Shown: piece by piece, positions 30,416-38,662 of the stretch
Position numbering within the stretch: position 1 is the first letter of the stretch
How the letters are laid out: every line of letters starts with the position of its first letter
NCBI GenBank assembly: GCA_021736255.1
Contig: JAIPGG010000011.1
Coordinates: forward strand, 1-47,671
Length of the DNA stretch: 47,671 nt
Direction of reading: 5' to 3'
Source: Spirochaetales bacterium
GTDB lineage: Bacteria; Spirochaetota; Spirochaetia; JAIPGG01
The notes under the pieces: generated by a model
What the model saw: the letters and a program-made list of their open reading frames with translations, nothing else
What the model was told of the DNA's origin: nothing
Database searches by the model: none
Translations under genes and position numbers: made by a program

Positions 30416-30985
30416 ATGGATCAAATACGAATGCTCGAGGACATGCTCAATTCCAGAACGAAGGAAGGCAAAGAGGGAATCGTCGCCTTTGCCCGGTACC
30501 TGCGGGGGACTACCCTTGACGAGCGGACTCTCCCGGTTTACTTAAAGTTTCTGCACACCGGTGTCCCGGAGGCTATGGACGAACTCTTCCAGGACCGGGA
30601 TCCCGCCTCTTTCTTTTCCCGCTTTGTCCCCAACCGGGACCTGATCACGGAGGTCATCGAGCTGCTCTCCGAAAACGTCCCGAAGCAGGCTGATCGGCGG
30701 GTCGTCCTGGCATGCCTGGGGGTTCTGGCCAACGCATACGCGAGTGCGGAGGACGGGATGACGATCTATCCGCTGACGGTGCAGGACCTCTTTCACACGG
30801 CAAAGCACCTTACGGCAGGGGACAATCAGGTTTCCGAGATATTGGAAGACCTCCTCGATTCGCTTTCGGCTCTTTCGGCAGGCCGGCACGGAGAACTCCA
30901 CAAAACGGTCCTGCAACTGCGGGACGCCCACCTGGATGCAACAAAGAAGATTGGCGATGTGATTCCCCACAACATGCTCGTCTGA
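30416..30985 (+). CDS. Paralogous helical family member A (divergent), unknown function
   Basis: Shares FARYL...LPVYLKFL...DRDP..FF....PN...GMTIYPLTVQDLFHTAKHL...EILEDLLDSL...KKIGDVIPHNMLV with the four other copies. Confidence 0.7.
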   Translation: MDQIRMLEDMLNSRTKEGKEGIVAFARYLRGTTLDERTLPVYLKFLHTGVPEAMDELFQDRDPASFFSRFVPNRDLITEVIELLSENVPKQADRRVVLACLGVLANAYASAEDGMTIYPLTVQDLFHTAKHLTAGDNQVSEILEDLLDSLSALSAGRHGELHKTVLQLRDAHLDATKKIGDVIPHNMLV

Positions 30986-31017: not shown

Positions 31018-32988
31018 TCAATACACAGGCAGCCGGATGTCTTGTCCCGGGAATACGAGGTTGAACTGATCGAGCCCGGGATTCGCTGCAAAAACGTCCA
31101 TAACAAACTCCATCCAGGAAACTTCGGCAGGAACGGAGTAGGTCCCCCCGCCGGAAACAGAAACGCCTCCGGCTTTGGCCGTCTGAAACAATTGCCACGT
31201 AGTTTCGCCCTCGTTCACCGACCAGAGAGGTCCACTGTCGCTCGAAGATATTTGAAAATCCGATGCGGCGGGTGTTTGCCCGGCGGCTGCTTCGCCGCTT
31301 TCGCCGGCAGCAGTCTCTGCGCCGCCCACAGCACCGGCGGACTCTGTCCCCGGCGCCTGGGCCTCGTCGATAGTTCCGCCCCCAGCGGATCCGGTCTCGC
31401 CACCCCCATCTTTCGCCGGTATTCCGGTAAAAAGAACGACCCCTAAGACCACGGCAGCCGCCGCTCCACCGGCAGTAAAAAGCATGCTCCGTTTTCTACG
31501 GGCAGGGCGGCCCCCTCCTTCATCTCGGCCCCGTTCAGCCGTTCGCTCCCTTCCGGTGTCGGTGGAGGGCGACTCCGGAGCCGGTTCCGGTTCCGGTTGG
31601 GTTCCGGGCTTTCGTTCCGGTTCTTCCGCCTGTTCGGAACCGGGAGCTCCGGCCGGCTGGTCTTCGGTTTCCAGGTCATCGATAATCTTCAACAATTCTT
31701 CGGTGTTGCGGCTAAAATGGATGGTATATTGGGAGTCTTTCGCTTCCTTTGCATTTGTACCGGAGGGAGTTCGCTCGCCTTCCATCGCCTCGTAATCTGA
31801 GCTTAGTTTTTTTTGGGAAGCGCTTTCTTCTCCAGCTTCCCGGACATCTCCATCGGTCCGGCTGCCACTTTTACCCTCGGTTTCGGCCGCTTGAATAGCT
31901 GCTTCTTTCGCTTCATTTCGATCAAAAGGGGATTGCCGCTCAGATTCCCGTTCACTGCCGATGTAAGCATTATCTCCTCGGTCAGTCCTTTGCTCTTGAT
32001 CGGTGTCTCCCTCTGTTTGTTCCGCAGAATCAGCAAGATCGGAGCGTTCGGTCTGTTCCTTGTCGGCACTTGGAGATTCTCCGGAATATCGGCCGACCCG
32101 TTCGGACTGCTCTTCACTTTCAGCCTGCTCTGGAGAAAACCTATCTCTCTCTGTTACGGTTGCACCCTCCTCTATCGAAGCAGCATCCATCTCGTTATCC
32201 CTTTTTGTCGCGCTTCCAACTGGTTTTTGTCGCCGAGAGATCGAATCCCCATCCGATCCGGTTTTCTCCTCGGATTCACGTGCTGAACGGGCGGCATAAT
32301 CACTCGGCTTTCGCATATCAGGCTCGTCCGCATAATGGAATTCTTCAGTTAGTGCCTTATCGCCTTTCCCCTCGATCTCTCGGATGATGTTTTTTAAATT
32401 CCTGAGGTACACAAAAATTCCCTGAATCACATTTTCCGGAAGATCAGATTCTATCCTGGAAAGGAGGAAACTCAGCATCGCCCGATTTTGTTCATTCAAA
32501 TCAACTCGACAAAAAATCATCGTAAGATAGAAAGCGGTAGCATTCGGACTGAACCGGGATGTGACCTTTTCAATTTTTATGCCCTGACTGATAGCGCGCT
32601 TGAAAGACAAGTAGGGCCGATTAATAATATCGTAGGTAATGTCGTCGGGAAGGGGGCGTTTATCATCAAAGAGCTGGTAACGAAGAAAACTTTGATCACT
32701 GTTGTCCAGCCGTCCCTTGAGCAATTCATAGAGCAATTCCGCAGTTCTCAGGTTCCCTTGGCCTAATTTATTGAGTAAAACCATCGATAAAACCAGTTGT
32801 TCTTTCGACGCGCTGCTCTCAAGAAACGAATTGCTGATTATTGAACACGTTGTTTTTACGTCTTCCGGGCCGAGTTCGCCGAGAAAATCGTCTATCTGTT
32901 TATTGAGTTGGGCACTCCACCTATGCACTTCGGCTGAGGAGTAAATAGATTTCAAATCGTCCTTGATTGTTTCCTCGGCCGGCGGCAA
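31018..32988 (-). CDS. Predicted single-pass membrane protein: N-terminal helical domain, acidic low-complexity linker, TM, LysM-like C-terminus
   Basis: N-terminal ~220 aa globular; E/S/D/R-rich middle; RRKRSMLFTAGGAAAAVVLGVVLFTGIPA TM; NEGETTWQLFQ...FAANPGLDQFNLVFPGQDIRLPVY. TTG start with AAGGTG upstream. Confidence 0.75.
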   Translation of the reverse strand: MPPAEETIKDDLKSIYSSAEVHRWSAQLNKQIDDFLGELGPEDVKTTCSIISNSFLESSASKEQLVLSMVLLNKLGQGNLRTAELLYELLKGRLDNSDQSFLRYQLFDDKRPLPDDITYDIINRPYLSFKRAISQGIKIEKVTSRFSPNATAFYLTMIFCRVDLNEQNRAMLSFLLSRIESDLPENVIQGIFVYLRNLKNIIREIEGKGDKALTEEFHYADEPDMRKPSDYAARSARESEEKTGSDGDSISRRQKPVGSATKRDNEMDAASIEEGATVTERDRFSPEQAESEEQSERVGRYSGESPSADKEQTERSDLADSAEQTEGDTDQEQRTDRGDNAYIGSERESERQSPFDRNEAKEAAIQAAETEGKSGSRTDGDVREAGEESASQKKLSSDYEAMEGERTPSGTNAKEAKDSQYTIHFSRNTEELLKIIDDLETEDQPAGAPGSEQAEEPERKPGTQPEPEPAPESPSTDTGRERTAERGRDEGGGRPARRKRSMLFTAGGAAAAVVLGVVLFTGIPAKDGGGETGSAGGGTIDEAQAPGTESAGAVGGAETAAGESGEAAAGQTPAASDFQISSSDSGPLWSVNEGETTWQLFQTAKAGGVSVSGGGTYSVPAEVSWMEFVMDVFAANPGLDQFNLVFPGQDIRLPVY

Positions 32989-33165: not shown

Positions 33166-33882
33166 ATGAACGAATGGGATTCTGGTAAAGAAGACAAAGA
33201 CTTCTTTCAACAAAACCGCCAAATTATACTCGACGGTATATTAGGAACCGGAAATCCAATTCAGGTCGGTTCAAGTATGGCTTTCGCAAAATACCTGAGC
33301 CACGTAGGCCTAACCTCAAAAAATCACTCCCTTTTTTTAAAAACAATTGAGACCAACAACAAATGGGTAGTGGATGAACTGGTTGCAGACCGGGATCCCC
33401 GGCTCATGTTTGCGGTTATACGCCCCTATTACGAGTTGATTCATCGGGCTTTTGAATTGCTTTCGTCATGGCACCCAGGGCAAATCTATTCCAAGGTTCT
33501 TTTGACTGTCCTCGGGACCATAGAATACAGCTTTTACAAGCCGGATGACGGCTTTGAGATTTACCCATTAGGCATTACCGACCTCCACAACCTAGGTAAG
33601 TTTCTCGACCAGGAGGAAGGTCAGCACAACAGCATAAACGAAACAATTCTCGAAATTCTCGATCGTTTGACCAGGCTCGGTGAATATCAAAGCACCATCC
33701 AAAAGAACATACTCGCAAAACATGCCTACAACATCAGAGATTCGTTTTTTGACAATACGAAAAGACTCGAAGACATCATCCCCAAGGTGCTGCTGGTCCG
33801 AATAAAACGAGAGGACAGAGAAGTACCTCCTTCCCGAGAATTCATTGATTTTGCCCAAAAAATCGACAATAATGATGAGTAG
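33166..33882 (+). CDS. Paralogous helical family member B, unknown function
   Basis: FAKYLSHVGLTSKNHSLFLKTIETNNKWVVDELVADRDPRLMF...GFEIYPLGITDLHNLGKFL...AYNIRDSFFDNTKRLEDIIPKVLL. Confidence 0.8.
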   Translation: MNEWDSGKEDKDFFQQNRQIILDGILGTGNPIQVGSSMAFAKYLSHVGLTSKNHSLFLKTIETNNKWVVDELVADRDPRLMFAVIRPYYELIHRAFELLSSWHPGQIYSKVLLTVLGTIEYSFYKPDDGFEIYPLGITDLHNLGKFLDQEEGQHNSINETILEILDRLTRLGEYQSTIQKNILAKHAYNIRDSFFDNTKRLEDIIPKVLLVRIKREDREVPPSREFIDFAQKIDNNDE

Positions 33883-33908: not shown

Positions 33909-34814
33909 ATGAGTATCAGCCCCTCCGACATCCAAAAGGCGACAAAAATAGTCGAAAACAATTCAAACCGACCGACAAGCAATTGTGGAATACCGGGAGG
34001 ACTATTGGATTTTTCCGAAGACACCAAACCCGCAATTGTTATCGGGGATCTGCACGGCGCCGTCGATAATCTCAAAGCGATTATCAATCACGAAGACAAC
34101 CTGGACCGGCTCAAAAACCACGAGCTTCGAGTTATTATCGTGGGCGATGGTCCACACAACGACCAAACCGGCCAGATGAAGGAAATGGAGTCCTCCCTCC
34201 AGGTGATGGATGAAATCATTCAACTGATAACCACATACGGGGAGGATGTGATCTATATCCGAGGAAATCACGACACCTTCGATGAAAATGTGGCCAAAAG
34301 CGCCATTCAACAGGGTCTGGAATTTCGCCTCCACATGACCGAACAATGGGGAGAAGAATACGTAGATGCTTTCGACGAATTCTTCGAGGCTCTGCCGATG
34401 TTTGTTATCGGAAAGGGTTTTGTCATTACCCATGCCGGACCGGTTCGTCATGGATGCACCCGCCAGGAGCTGATCGATGTAAAGGACAACCCGGATTATT
34501 ATCGACAGCTCATGTGGAACCGCCTTCACGAGTTTCGGGGTAATCCAAGCTTGAAGGAATACGGAGAAGAGGATATCCGAAAAACACTCAAGAAACTGAA
34601 CCTACCGCTCGACACTCCCTTCATTGTCGGTCACAATCCGATGTGGCATACCGGAAATGACACCGGCATTTGGCGGGATATTATCGGAATAAAAAATCAC
34701 ATAATCATTTATACGAATCTCCAAACTCGGGGACCATATCTCTACATAGAAAATAGTCGGATCACGGAAATGTTTGCAAGACCCAAAGCACCAGAGAGGT
34801 TTTATGTCAGATAA
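33909..34814 (+). CDS. PPP-family-like metallophosphatase
   Basis: IVIGDLHGAVDNL (GDxHG), VIIVGDGPHND (divergent GDxVDRG), YIRGNHDTFDE (GNHD), VITHAGPVRHG, FIVGHNPMWH. Confidence 0.85.
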   Translation: MSISPSDIQKATKIVENNSNRPTSNCGIPGGLLDFSEDTKPAIVIGDLHGAVDNLKAIINHEDNLDRLKNHELRVIIVGDGPHNDQTGQMKEMESSLQVMDEIIQLITTYGEDVIYIRGNHDTFDENVAKSAIQQGLEFRLHMTEQWGEEYVDAFDEFFEALPMFVIGKGFVITHAGPVRHGCTRQELIDVKDNPDYYRQLMWNRLHEFRGNPSLKEYGEEDIRKTLKKLNLPLDTPFIVGHNPMWHTGNDTGIWRDIIGIKNHIIIYTNLQTRGPYLYIENSRITEMFARPKAPERFYVR

Positions 34815-35733
34815 GAATGACAACATGCTAATAGCCGATACGATCAAGGATCAAACCGTCCGCGATTATTTTTACCTCGATCTGTCGCTGAATGAACTCA
34901 TCGACAAGATGTGCAACCTGCAGCTTCAAAATATCGGGGATGATAAGTTGGCTCCTTTCTGGGCGAAGGTTCGCGGATACACAGCCGGTATGGACAATGA
35001 AGGCAACTCATGGCTCATTAAGGAAATTCCACCTGAAGAAGGCCCTGCTCATAAGACTCAGGAAATCGCCTTTTACATGGATTTCTTGTTAAAGACACCG
35101 GCCGCCCCCACTGTCTTGCTCCAACATGGCGATACAATTTACCGGGCGACCAAACAGATTACCAATGCCATGCAGATCGGCAGCTACAACTATCTACAGG
35201 AACCGTTCATTAAGATGCTGGCAAATGATCTGATAAATCGCTGGCTTTTCTTCGATGAGGACAGAAATCCGAATAATTACCTGGTCAAACACGACACCGA
35301 CGGGGAACCCTTCATTATCGTGATTGATTACAACAAAGCGGATTTGGAAACGGAAGATATGAAGATCTTCGGACTCGAAGATCGGTTCGGCTGGCACCGT
35401 GAAGAAAAAACTCGATTCCTCACGTTACTGAAACCGGAAAATTTCGAGGGTTTGAGCATCGAAGACTTCGAACAACGCCTATCGTTAATGACCAGTATCG
35501 AAGAATCGACCATTCTCGAAATGTGCCGATCGGTGTTTTCCTGTGGCATTATCGAAGATACCGATGGAACGGCACAGAAAATCACTCGCAACCTGCTCAA
35601 TCGCATCGACTACCTCGATACATATTTTCGGAAATGGTTCAAAAAGCGAAACACCCAAAAAGAAAAGGAAGTAGATGACCGATATTCCGGACTGGGTCAG
35701 TCGTTTCTCGATTACTACAAACGGAAGACATGA
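34804..35733 (+). CDS. Atypical (HipA/PI3K-PI4K-like) kinase-fold protein
   Basis: SWLIKEIPPEEG (candidate ATP Lys), FFDEDRNPNNYLVKH (catalytic DRNxxN), FIIVIDYNKADLE (metal Asp). ATG 34804 preceded by GAGAGG; overlaps phosphatase stop by 11 nt. Confidence 0.65.
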   Translation: MSDKNDNMLIADTIKDQTVRDYFYLDLSLNELIDKMCNLQLQNIGDDKLAPFWAKVRGYTAGMDNEGNSWLIKEIPPEEGPAHKTQEIAFYMDFLLKTPAAPTVLLQHGDTIYRATKQITNAMQIGSYNYLQEPFIKMLANDLINRWLFFDEDRNPNNYLVKHDTDGEPFIIVIDYNKADLETEDMKIFGLEDRFGWHREEKTRFLTLLKPENFEGLSIEDFEQRLSLMTSIEESTILEMCRSVFSCGIIEDTDGTAQKITRNLLNRIDYLDTYFRKWFKKRNTQKEKEVDDRYSGLGQSFLDYYKRKT

Positions 35734-35753: not shown

Positions 35754-37829
35754 ATGTTTCAGGCAGGAGATACAATCAATAATTGCTACGTCCTCCACGA
35801 GAAACTCGGAGAAAACGATGTTTTCTCCACATGGCGGGCAAAGGCTCTCTATTCGCCCAACGACTTTTCATTGACCTTTTTCACCTTTTCCGAAGAAGAG
35901 ATCGCAGATAACACGTTTGAACAGTTTCAGCAGGTTTTTTTTACCCTAAACACCTTCCAGAGTCCCTATATTCACACGCCGTTCGAATTCGACGAGTCCC
36001 AAGGGATAAAATATCTCTCATTCCCCTGGATATCAGGTTATTCCCTTCGAGAGGCTCTGTCGGAACAACTAATCAACGATTATAGTCAAATTGTAAATAT
36101 ATCGATCAACCTCCTTCGCGCACTCTCAGAACTCGAACGTATCGGTCTGCGTCACAATTGCCTCTCGCCACGGTCGGTTGTACTCGAGACATCATATTTC
36201 GAATACGGCTTAGTTCGTCTTCGAAATGTTGGATTTTCGCCGATCCTCGCATCCCTACCCAACTGCGACTATTGGAAAAGGCTCGAGCCATACCGCCGAA
36301 AACCGCAGGCAGGTGATCGTGGTCATGAACAAGATCTCTATGCAGCCGGGATTCTCATAGAAGAGATGCTTACATCCATCAACACCGAAGAAAATCTATC
36401 AGAGTCGGGTTCCCTCCGGCAATTGAGCCGGAACATGCAGGAACAACCGGAAGCCTTCGATTCGGTTGTTCACGTTCTCAATCAACTTCTTCAGTCCTAT
36501 CCGGGAAAGCAGGTTGTCGATTTAATTCAGGAACATATTGCTTCTACCGGCTTGGCGGAAAAATCGAACAAAAAACTGCTCCAGACGATCGAGAATCGCT
36601 ATACGGAGTACAAGAATGCCGCCTACGAGAAACGGAGAACTCGGATCCGGGAATTGGAAAGCAAAAATCGCATGTTAGAAGAACTGCCCGAACAAGAGAT
36701 TATTCCGGAAACCTCTCTGAATATCAGGGAGGAAGTAGAAGAGCTGGAACCGGCAGGACCGAACCCCGAAATCGAAGAAACACCGTCACAGGCATCACGA
36801 ACAACAGAAAACGCAAGATTGCTTACGAAAACATTGAACGCTGTGCGTCGATTTTTCCGTCGAGGAGGAAAAAAGAGATTTAGGCTCTCGAAAAAACCTG
36901 AAAGCTTTGAAAAACCACCACAAAGCGACAGGAGCGAAGCAAATCTACCGACAGTCGACGGCGACCTGAAGCATACGGGCGAACCTGATGAGAAAAACAG
37001 AGTGGCAACAGTCGTTCAGCAACTCACGGCCCATTTTACCGGCTTATTCAAATTCCGCTCCCGCTCTGAGGTTTCCACCGCCTCTTCCACTACAGCTCCA
37101 TCGCCGGATTTCGAAGAAAACGACACAGCCCCGCAAACCACCGAGATACCCGAAGTCAACACCGAACGGCCATACACGTCCGGTACCACTGAAGAAGAAT
37201 ACTACCGCAGGCAGCGGAAAACCCCGGGGTCGGGAACCGAATTGGGCAGCTACATGAATCAACAGGCTCAAGCAAAAAACTTTTCAGCCCGTTCCAGGGA
37301 ACAATCAAACAGCGATTACGCCCTCGGAGAGGGCCCAGACTATTCAACCCTCGAACGCAGGGATTCCGAGGACGCAAGTGGGCCCTCTCAAAATATAGAC
37401 TGGAACGAAAGCCGGATTCGAAAGGATCGGGAAACACCTCAATGGTTGCACTCACATACAGACGAGGAAGGAGAAACCAGGGACCGCGGACAATCGGAAC
37501 GCAAACCGGAAGACTACACCGTACCCCAATCGCTTCCTCCGAAACTCGAGCAACAGGGGCCGAAACGGGCTGCAAGCGACCTGCATCAGGAGCCGTCAAG
37601 CACAGAGGACACGAAAAATCCGGCAACCCCACCAAGACCTGTGGTCCCTCAACCGGAACCCGATACAATTCAGCCGGTTGAAAAACCTCCAGAAACCGAC
37701 GACACGGGGCAAGGTCCGGAACAACCGATGAGGCCGGCGAAGAAAGGGTTTTTTGCCCGTCTCTTGAGCTTTTTGCAACGTATATACGGTTTTTTTACCG
37801 GTAATGCCGGGAAAAATCGAGACAACTAA
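35754..37829 (+). CDS. Hanks-type pseudokinase with long disordered region and aromatic/basic C-terminal tail
   Basis: Kinase-like order: YVLHEKLGENDVFSTWRA, FSLTFF (VALKFF position, K to T), YLSFPWISGYSLREAL, GLRHNCLSPRSVVLE (HRD to HNC), RLRNVGFSP (DFG to NVG), DLYAAGILIEEMLT; C-tail KKGFFARLLSFLQRIYGFFTGNAGKNRDN. Confidence 0.8.
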   Translation: MFQAGDTINNCYVLHEKLGENDVFSTWRAKALYSPNDFSLTFFTFSEEEIADNTFEQFQQVFFTLNTFQSPYIHTPFEFDESQGIKYLSFPWISGYSLREALSEQLINDYSQIVNISINLLRALSELERIGLRHNCLSPRSVVLETSYFEYGLVRLRNVGFSPILASLPNCDYWKRLEPYRRKPQAGDRGHEQDLYAAGILIEEMLTSINTEENLSESGSLRQLSRNMQEQPEAFDSVVHVLNQLLQSYPGKQVVDLIQEHIASTGLAEKSNKKLLQTIENRYTEYKNAAYEKRRTRIRELESKNRMLEELPEQEIIPETSLNIREEVEELEPAGPNPEIEETPSQASRTTENARLLTKTLNAVRRFFRRGGKKRFRLSKKPESFEKPPQSDRSEANLPTVDGDLKHTGEPDEKNRVATVVQQLTAHFTGLFKFRSRSEVSTASSTTAPSPDFEENDTAPQTTEIPEVNTERPYTSGTTEEEYYRRQRKTPGSGTELGSYMNQQAQAKNFSARSREQSNSDYALGEGPDYSTLERRDSEDASGPSQNIDWNESRIRKDRETPQWLHSHTDEEGETRDRGQSERKPEDYTVPQSLPPKLEQQGPKRAASDLHQEPSSTEDTKNPATPPRPVVPQPEPDTIQPVEKPPETDDTGQGPEQPMRPAKKGFFARLLSFLQRIYGFFTGNAGKNRDN

Positions 37830-37906
37830 TACTACTCTACTACTCTATGAAGAGCCGGCATAAAACAACCCGCAACTTGTAAGGCCGCGGGTTTATTGGC
37901 TTTCTC

Positions 37907-38593
37907 TTATTGTTTACTCGGGGGCGTTTCTAACTGAGTATAATCTTCAGTCTTCAACAACAGATCAGGTATGGCTTCATCCAACGATTTATTCATGTCG
38001 AGGAATTTGCCTCGTATGTTGTTCGCCTGAGTAGCAACAGACATGAGTTCCTGATCTTCCGAGGGTCGACCTGGATCTACAAGTGATGCGATCGTATCGA
38101 GAATACTGAGTATACTCGAGTTCAAATCATATTTTTGGTCCTGAGCTTCATCCAGATGCTTTCCAAGGTTATTCACATCCTCCGGGTTCAAAGGATACAC
38201 TCGGTACCCCTCGAGCGGACTTTGGTATGTTACCTTCAAGAGCCCTAGGTATACTTGCAGAGCCTTTGGATATAGCCCTCCACGCTTTGCTTGAGTCAAC
38301 GCCCTGAAGCATTCCTTGAGGATATAATAATTCGGTTGAACCTTGATAAAGAAGGTTTCCGGCTCCGCATTACCCAGCAGAGCATCCGCAACCCAATGGT
38401 TTCTCAAAGCGAGGATTTTGAGGAAGATCGGATAATTATCGGGATTCACTCCTACCATGCTCAGATAGCGGGCATATGCTATCGTCGCATCCACACCTTC
38501 AGTTTCTTGCAGCTCAAGGATATTGGTAAGGAAAGATAATTCGAGCTTATCCAGATCCTCTTGGGTCCAACCGCTCTCTTCCCATCTCTTCAT
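37907..38593 (-). CDS. Paralogous helical family member C, unknown function
   Basis: YARYLSMVGVNPDNYPIFLKILALRNHWVADALLGNAEP...GYRVYPLNPEDVNNLGKHLDE...SILSILDTI...ANNIRGKFLDMNKSLDEAIPDLLL; start set by AAGGAG 7 nt upstream of ATG 38593. Confidence 0.8.
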   Translation of the reverse strand: MKRWEESGWTQEDLDKLELSFLTNILELQETEGVDATIAYARYLSMVGVNPDNYPIFLKILALRNHWVADALLGNAEPETFFIKVQPNYYILKECFRALTQAKRGGLYPKALQVYLGLLKVTYQSPLEGYRVYPLNPEDVNNLGKHLDEAQDQKYDLNSSILSILDTIASLVDPGRPSEDQELMSVATQANNIRGKFLDMNKSLDEAIPDLLLKTEDYTQLETPPSKQ

Positions 38594-38662
38594 GGATACA
38601 CTCCTTCGTATGAACAAAGGTGCAGGATTCGGCATCCTGCACCCGATAGTACAATGTTGTAG

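Follow-up and report, generated by a model that had tools for sequence, protein, structure and literature searches.

The open reading frame at positions 35754–37829 (+ strand) of the 47,671-nucleotide stretch of DNA analysed here (the window) encodes a 691-residue protein with an ATG start, below called pk. Its kinase-like domain has lost the beta3 Lys, the HRD Asp and the DFG Asp and is, by this motif criterion, a predicted pseudokinase. pk is a member of a distinct Spirochaetota pseudokinase family. We infer that it has no catalytic activity and, tethered to the membrane, serves a kinase/phosphatase module as an adaptor or allosteric subunit, a reading for which the case for and against appears to us evenly balanced.

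A predicted Hanks-type fold with a lost active site

In a single-sequence scan pk alone scored below the Pfam Pkinase cut-off of 31.7 (13.5 bits, E 0.046), and no canonical Pkinase match at 1e-5 was found in the window's genome assembly, which is 82% complete. A profile built on the family (31 members) matched S. aureus PknB (4eqm/9ymt) at E 3e-39 in a PDB profile search, and the kinase-like domain (residues 1–264, 35754–36545, delimited by the AF2 model, the family alignment and the profile) was modelled with a pLDDT of about 95 over most of residues 1–250. The comparison of a predicted structure with Hanks kinases, called for by an initial annotation made from the sequence, gave S. aureus Stk1/PknB (9ymt) as the Foldseek match of the AF2 model, at 2.2e-13 and with a target TM of 0.72. 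Because of the family profile, the model confidence and the Foldseek match, we regard the predicted two-lobed, PknB-homologous Hanks-type fold as secure, and the kinase fold that the annotation had called traceable is indeed so.

In the VAIK region, beta3 of pk reads FSLTFF (residues 38–43). The position of the Lys is occupied by T41 (35874–35876) in the MAFFT alignment or by L40 in the HMMER alignment, and a Lys is present in neither register. HRD is replaced by HNC (residues 134–136, 36153–36161), with C136 in place of the Asp, and DFG by NVG (residues 158–160, 36225–36233), with N158 in place of the Asp; the catalytic-loop Asn is changed to S. These beta3, HRD and DFG replacements had been proposed in the initial annotation, and all were recovered in the alignment and the profile. 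When the family profile was aligned to PknB in the PDB profile search, HRD was paired with hGL and DFG with kpG.

The same losses were observed among the relatives. Across 31 aligned pk proteins, the beta3 Lys is found in none, the HRD Asp in one (L033) and the DFG Asp in two, which are near-identical to each other. A relative from genome G129 apparently carries a D at the DFG-Asp position, as read by eye. A functional residue elsewhere in the active site, which had been named as the observation that could overturn the pseudokinase claim, found no conserved polar candidate across the 31 relatives save the structural alpha-F Asp (Asp194 in the window pk), which all 31 keep. By its sequence, pk lacks the ATP-positioning, catalytic-base and metal-binding residues. 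Since the motifs are lost and no alternative polar active-site residue is conserved, catalysis by pk is very unlikely, and the pseudokinase claim is upheld.

Family and subgroups

A first scan of named genomes with a single kinase sequence gave no matches; an alignment-based scan then succeeded. It recovered 48 loci with the neighbouring kinase (kin, described below), most of them in Spirochaetota MAGs and a few in SAR324 and Deltaproteobacteria. pk is present in 31 of the 48, as a conserved Spirochaetota family. In a tree whose branches are long and in which other kinases are sparsely sampled, all pk proteins stood apart from the ordinary and the CP1-like kinases of the same genomes (support 100/99).

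In subgroup 1, which holds the window, pk lies directly after kin and ends in an amphipathic helix. Subgroup 2, with Treponema sp. UBA12037 among its members, mostly shows the gene order kinase-fam240-fam240-fam240-pseudokinase (fam240 being a family of about 240 aa); its pk closes the gene run or lies upstream. There the beta3 residue is usually Arg, DFG usually reads KPG, and the tail is replaced by a C-terminus weakly resembling a degenerate COG3899-type ATPase (hhalign probability 41%). Because subgroup 2 has this ATPase-like domain instead of the tail, membrane tethering would not be family-wide.

Several observations on individual loci were made in the course of this work. In the relatives at L034–L053 (e.g. 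L042:13357-15417 and L038:5763-7847), the kinase domain and the C-terminal COG3899-like ATPase both look degenerate, and the Walker A position reads like FIQEPPPGP. Genome G067 contains two divergent pk relatives, L033:2421-4175 (− strand) and L092; L033, in which the HRD Asp is retained (as HND) and the beta3 Lys and the DFG Asp are lost, is a possible intermediate. The MAG record of L039 (DYPP01000020.1) carries the title Treponema denticola, isolate SulCav_GS09; the species name may be wrong.

A disordered linker, an amphipathic tail and purifying selection

The domain is followed by a low-complexity linker (residues 310–661, 36681–37736, + strand, as are all pk features). Beyond residue 315 the AF2 pLDDT is mostly below 50 (308 residues of the protein), and the linker is therefore predicted to be disordered, in agreement with the polar low-complexity segment first described. 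Two internal helices were predicted by AF2. The first, at residues 352–369 (ARLLTKTLNAVRRFFRRG region, 36807–36860), is basic and amphipathic, with a hydrophobic moment of 0.61 and a charge of +6, and similar segments are present in several relatives; the second spans residues 413–429 (VVQQLTAHFTGLFKF region, 36990–37040; pLDDT about 74). A third, basic/aromatic amphipathic helix is located near the C-terminus (residues 662–681, AKKGFFARLLSFLQRIYGFF, 37737–37796), where residues 666–681 are modelled as helical.

The amphipathic stretch in the last 32 residues was compared with composition shuffles, for the window pk and for 11 complete close relatives. The C-terminal helix of the window pk exceeded its shuffles at p about 0.001, and a basic hydrophobic amphipathic tail was found in 11/11 relatives (individual p ≤ 0.035, combined 8e-16), although their linkers hardly align. 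The G129 protein, which was outside this test, also has such a tail (KKSLWLRFWMFLKKIFKFYKQ). These results substantiate the basic/aromatic C-tail suspected from the sequence: according to sequence and model it appears to be a conserved terminal helix with a high hydrophobic moment and a basic face. Among the relatives this amphipathic, basic/aromatic character is maintained, whereas the tail sequence itself drifts, as the linker does. No transmembrane segment was detected in pk, the best 19-residue Kyte-Doolittle mean being 0.8.

FtsA and B. subtilis MinD each have, at the C-terminus, an amphipathic helix that binds membranes (PMC6158289). The pk tail shares with these helices its position and its basic amphipathic character, without homology, and this likeness suggests that the membrane binding shown for FtsA and MinD extends, by analogy, to peripheral binding by pk. 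The tail thus likely tethers the protein to the membrane; it could instead dock a protein rather than lipid.

Selection was estimated from two close relatives, L008 and L009. Between them, the kinase-like domain has a dN/dS of 0.11 and the linker one of 0.29, and the 26 codons of the tail show zero non-synonymous changes. As judged from these sequences, pk is under purifying selection, and the two ratios and the unchanged tail codons argue that it is not decaying.

The neighbouring kinase

The kin gene (34804–35733, + strand) gave no match in Pfam, NCBIfam or PADLOC, no curated HipA model of Pfam or NCBIfam matched it, and a PDB profile search was likewise negative; it was identified by the fold search alone. 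PI4KII (2e-4), HipA (4.7e-4) and CtkA (8e-4) were among the best Foldseek matches of its model (pLDDT 89), with TM values of 0.39–0.49 by query length. In 43 kin relatives D153, N158 and D175 are invariant and K73 nearly so, and the D153/N158/D175 spacing is the one expected of HipA. Sequence and model hence indicate a kinase of the HipA/CtkA/PI4KII fold with a catalytic D-x4-N and a metal Asp, not a Hanks kinase, and both this fold and the conserved D-x4-N...D pattern, which is HipA-like, speak for an active enzyme. The initial annotation was right that pk is encoded directly after a kinase with intact catalytic-type residues, and it needs correction as to the type of that kinase. The family of kin, which occurs in Spirochaetota, SAR324 and some Deltaproteobacteria, is without a Pfam or NCBIfam model.

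The possibility that pk is a dead paralogue of kin was considered and rejected. The fold of kin differs from the Hanks fold, and pk is therefore no inactive duplicate of kin; two branches of kinases are paired.

Gene module and linkage

Four closely spaced + strand genes, fam240, phosphoesterase, kin and pk, form a run that ends with pk. The run begins with a fam240 paralogue (33166–33882), which is followed by a calcineurin-like (PPP-type) phosphoesterase (33909–34814; Pfam Metallophos 9.5e-11, PHROG NinI-like Ser/Thr phosphatase 1.1e-7). The phosphoesterase and kin genes overlap by 11 bp, and 20 bp separate the kin stop from the pk start. Three more fam240 paralogues (37907–38635, 38663–39472 and 39500–40195, all − strand) converge on pk from the opposite side, and a GC-rich inverted repeat between the convergent runs (37867–37893) is terminator-like by consensus match only. 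These four were recognised by alignment; with a further copy at 30416–30985 (+ strand), the window holds five fam240 paralogues, and four or more surround kin in many loci. No known relatives of fam240 were found in Pfam, NCBIfam or by PDB profile (best E 0.09). A protein with one TM segment (31018–32988, − strand; hydrophobic segment KD 2.25) recurs beside the module and may connect it to the envelope; its C-terminus is LysM-like as a pattern impression, Pfam giving no LysM match.

In the first sample, eight genomes, the window's among them, have pk directly 3' of kin, and so do 11 named loci. In an evenly drawn sample of 249 genomes of the class, kin was found in 25 and pk in 16, and all 16 pk genomes have kin nearby on the same contig. 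The hypergeometric probability of this co-occurrence, 3e-19, overstates independence because the genomes are related. Matches in genomes G162, G184 and G216 were counted as ordinary kinases on their weak scores, their frame length (> 1,000 aa in 3/4 matches) and the absence of kin from these genomes. Matches to the PADLOC model PD-T4-6, a generic Ser/Thr kinase model, were not counted as evidence of phage defence. In G017, a genome with kin and no pk, a second PPP-type phosphoesterase gene overlaps a canonical Hanks kinase gene (L103:12310-15178, − strand) about 6 kb from kin.

Kin and the phosphoesterase are found without pk at L029, at L031 and in more distant lineages, and pk is therefore not required for the core module. 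Since kin persists without pk, and all 16 pk genomes of the class sample also carry kin, pk would be accessory to the module and dependent on it, and not the reverse. At L029:10880-11010, an out-of-frame stretch just past the kin stop reads GFFHRLLEILRKAFSLLRNIFLPK followed by a stop; this tail-like stretch is without the usual start codon and resembles a pseudokinase tail left behind when the rest of the gene was deleted.

Proposed mechanism and alternatives

In the mechanism that we propose, the tail would work as the C-terminal helices of FtsA and MinD do and insert into the inner leaflet of the cytoplasmic membrane, with one or two of the internal amphipathic helices contributing. The dead kinase domain would serve as a protein-binding module that docks kin plus the PPP phosphoesterase and/or fam240 proteins, and at the membrane these partners would be concentrated or allosterically tuned. 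Most likely, components of the module would be phosphorylated reversibly as a result, and the Ser/Thr-rich linker of pk itself may be among them. Because the kin–pk pair sits in a larger module, made up with the LysM-like one-TM protein, the fam240 paralogues and the phosphoesterase, a role as scaffold or activator of kin is one option among several. A more specific version, which we put forward only tentatively, is a STRAD-like arrangement across kinase superfamilies, where the membrane-tethered Hanks pseudokinase would bind and allosterically control the HipA/CtkA-fold kin, together with the PPP phosphatase and fam240 adaptors. If true, spirochaetes would have on their inner membrane a signalling complex not described so far.

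The gene order bears on the strongest competing explanation, in which pk is mainly a scaffold for fam240 or the one-TM protein and its linkage to kin reflects a shared operon and regulation rather than contact. Nearly every locus has fam240 genes on the flanks of the run, and the pk of subgroup 2 mostly follows three fam240 genes directly, not kin. However, in subgroup 1 pk is directly 3' of kin, and fam240 and kin persist without pk at L029, L031, L057 and L066; we consider this explanation unlikely, with perhaps a chance in four of being correct.

The adaptor role is also to be weighed against that of a substrate or decoy, whose Ser/Thr/Glu-rich linker would be the target of kin and the phosphatase and whose dead domain would be only a docking site. 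The linker is polar and under weak constraint, the kinase and phosphatase genes are directly adjacent, and there is a precedent in the MviN tail, reported as phosphorylated by PknB (PMC12599244). The pk linkers, however, are not alignable across genera, and this makes a substrate role improbable.

That pk is active through unusual chemistry, as SelO or SidJ, seems to us highly improbable: SidJ is described as a pseudokinase with another activity (PMC6858067), but the 31 relatives share no conserved acidic or basic active-site residue except the structural alpha-F Asp, and E78, which is conserved among them, is outside the canonical catalytic positions. Decay of a gene without function is the least credible reading, barely worth entertaining, for although pk has diverged fast (17–28% identity to relatives against 38–64% for kin in pk-carrying loci) and L029 holds an apparent remnant, long intact reading frames in many genera and the conserved tail and fold oppose it and the low domain dN/dS already contradicts it.

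Comparison with known systems

Bacterial pseudokinases are almost unstudied; experimental work on them is described as very limited in a 2025 review (PMC12599244). Here the fixed gene neighbourhood of a whole predicted-inactive family offers a single candidate partner kinase and a single candidate phosphatase, which makes the function of a bacterial pseudokinase directly testable with three proteins. The module itself is an apparently undescribed multi-gene signalling module of spirochaetes and a few other bacteria. A literature search on spirochaete pseudokinases returned no relevant paper.

The closest match of pk, by fold and by profile, is S. aureus PknB/Stk1. This kinase and S. pneumoniae StkP are active and keep K, HRD and DFG, whereas pk keeps none of them and is also without their PASTA domains.

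Seven bacterial pseudokinase families, ActPs1-3, GLW, CP1, DYD and DLHK, are listed in the review (PMC12599244). As far as the accessible text goes, none is defined by the architecture or the clade of pk, two CP1 members are reported from Leptospira, and the main text has no word beginning with 'spiroch'. We compared pk in detail with three of the seven, ActPs3, GLW and CP1, and each has a defining feature that pk lacks; DYD and DLHK are described there as keeping HRD and/or DFG. According to the same source, the pseudokinase domain of ActPs3 (MviN) has lost all three motifs, as in pk, and is membrane-associated with a proposed recruiting role; it shows an activation-loop deletion, is primarily actinobacterial and has a TM segment in many members. 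pk, in contrast, is from Spirochaetota, has no TM segment and lies in a different gene context. The GLW pseudokinases, also described as membrane-associated and divergent in all three motifs, are marked by GLW at the HRD position, by a poly-Leu beta3 and by a TM segment that follows the domain, whereas pk has HNC (HN, HG or HL in its closest subgroup), F-x-L-x-F and no TM segment. CP1 proteins are presented as soluble, with a Hanks-type kinase domain and a COG3899 ATPase, only part of the family being pseudokinases. The subgroup 2 relatives share with CP1 a C-terminal domain that weakly resembles such an ATPase, in degenerate form; the window pk has no ATPase domain by Pfam or AF2 and carries instead the disordered linker and the amphipathic tail. 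In the tree, pk separated from nine kinase-ATPase (CP1-like) proteins on a branch with support 100/99, these being sampled proteins and not a reference CP1 set.

As in STRAD-LKB1 and other pseudokinase-kinase pairs, the pseudokinase is genetically linked to a kinase. Unlike in STRAD-LKB1, the candidate partner of pk would come from another branch of the superfamily, the HipA/CtkA/PI4KII-like kinases.
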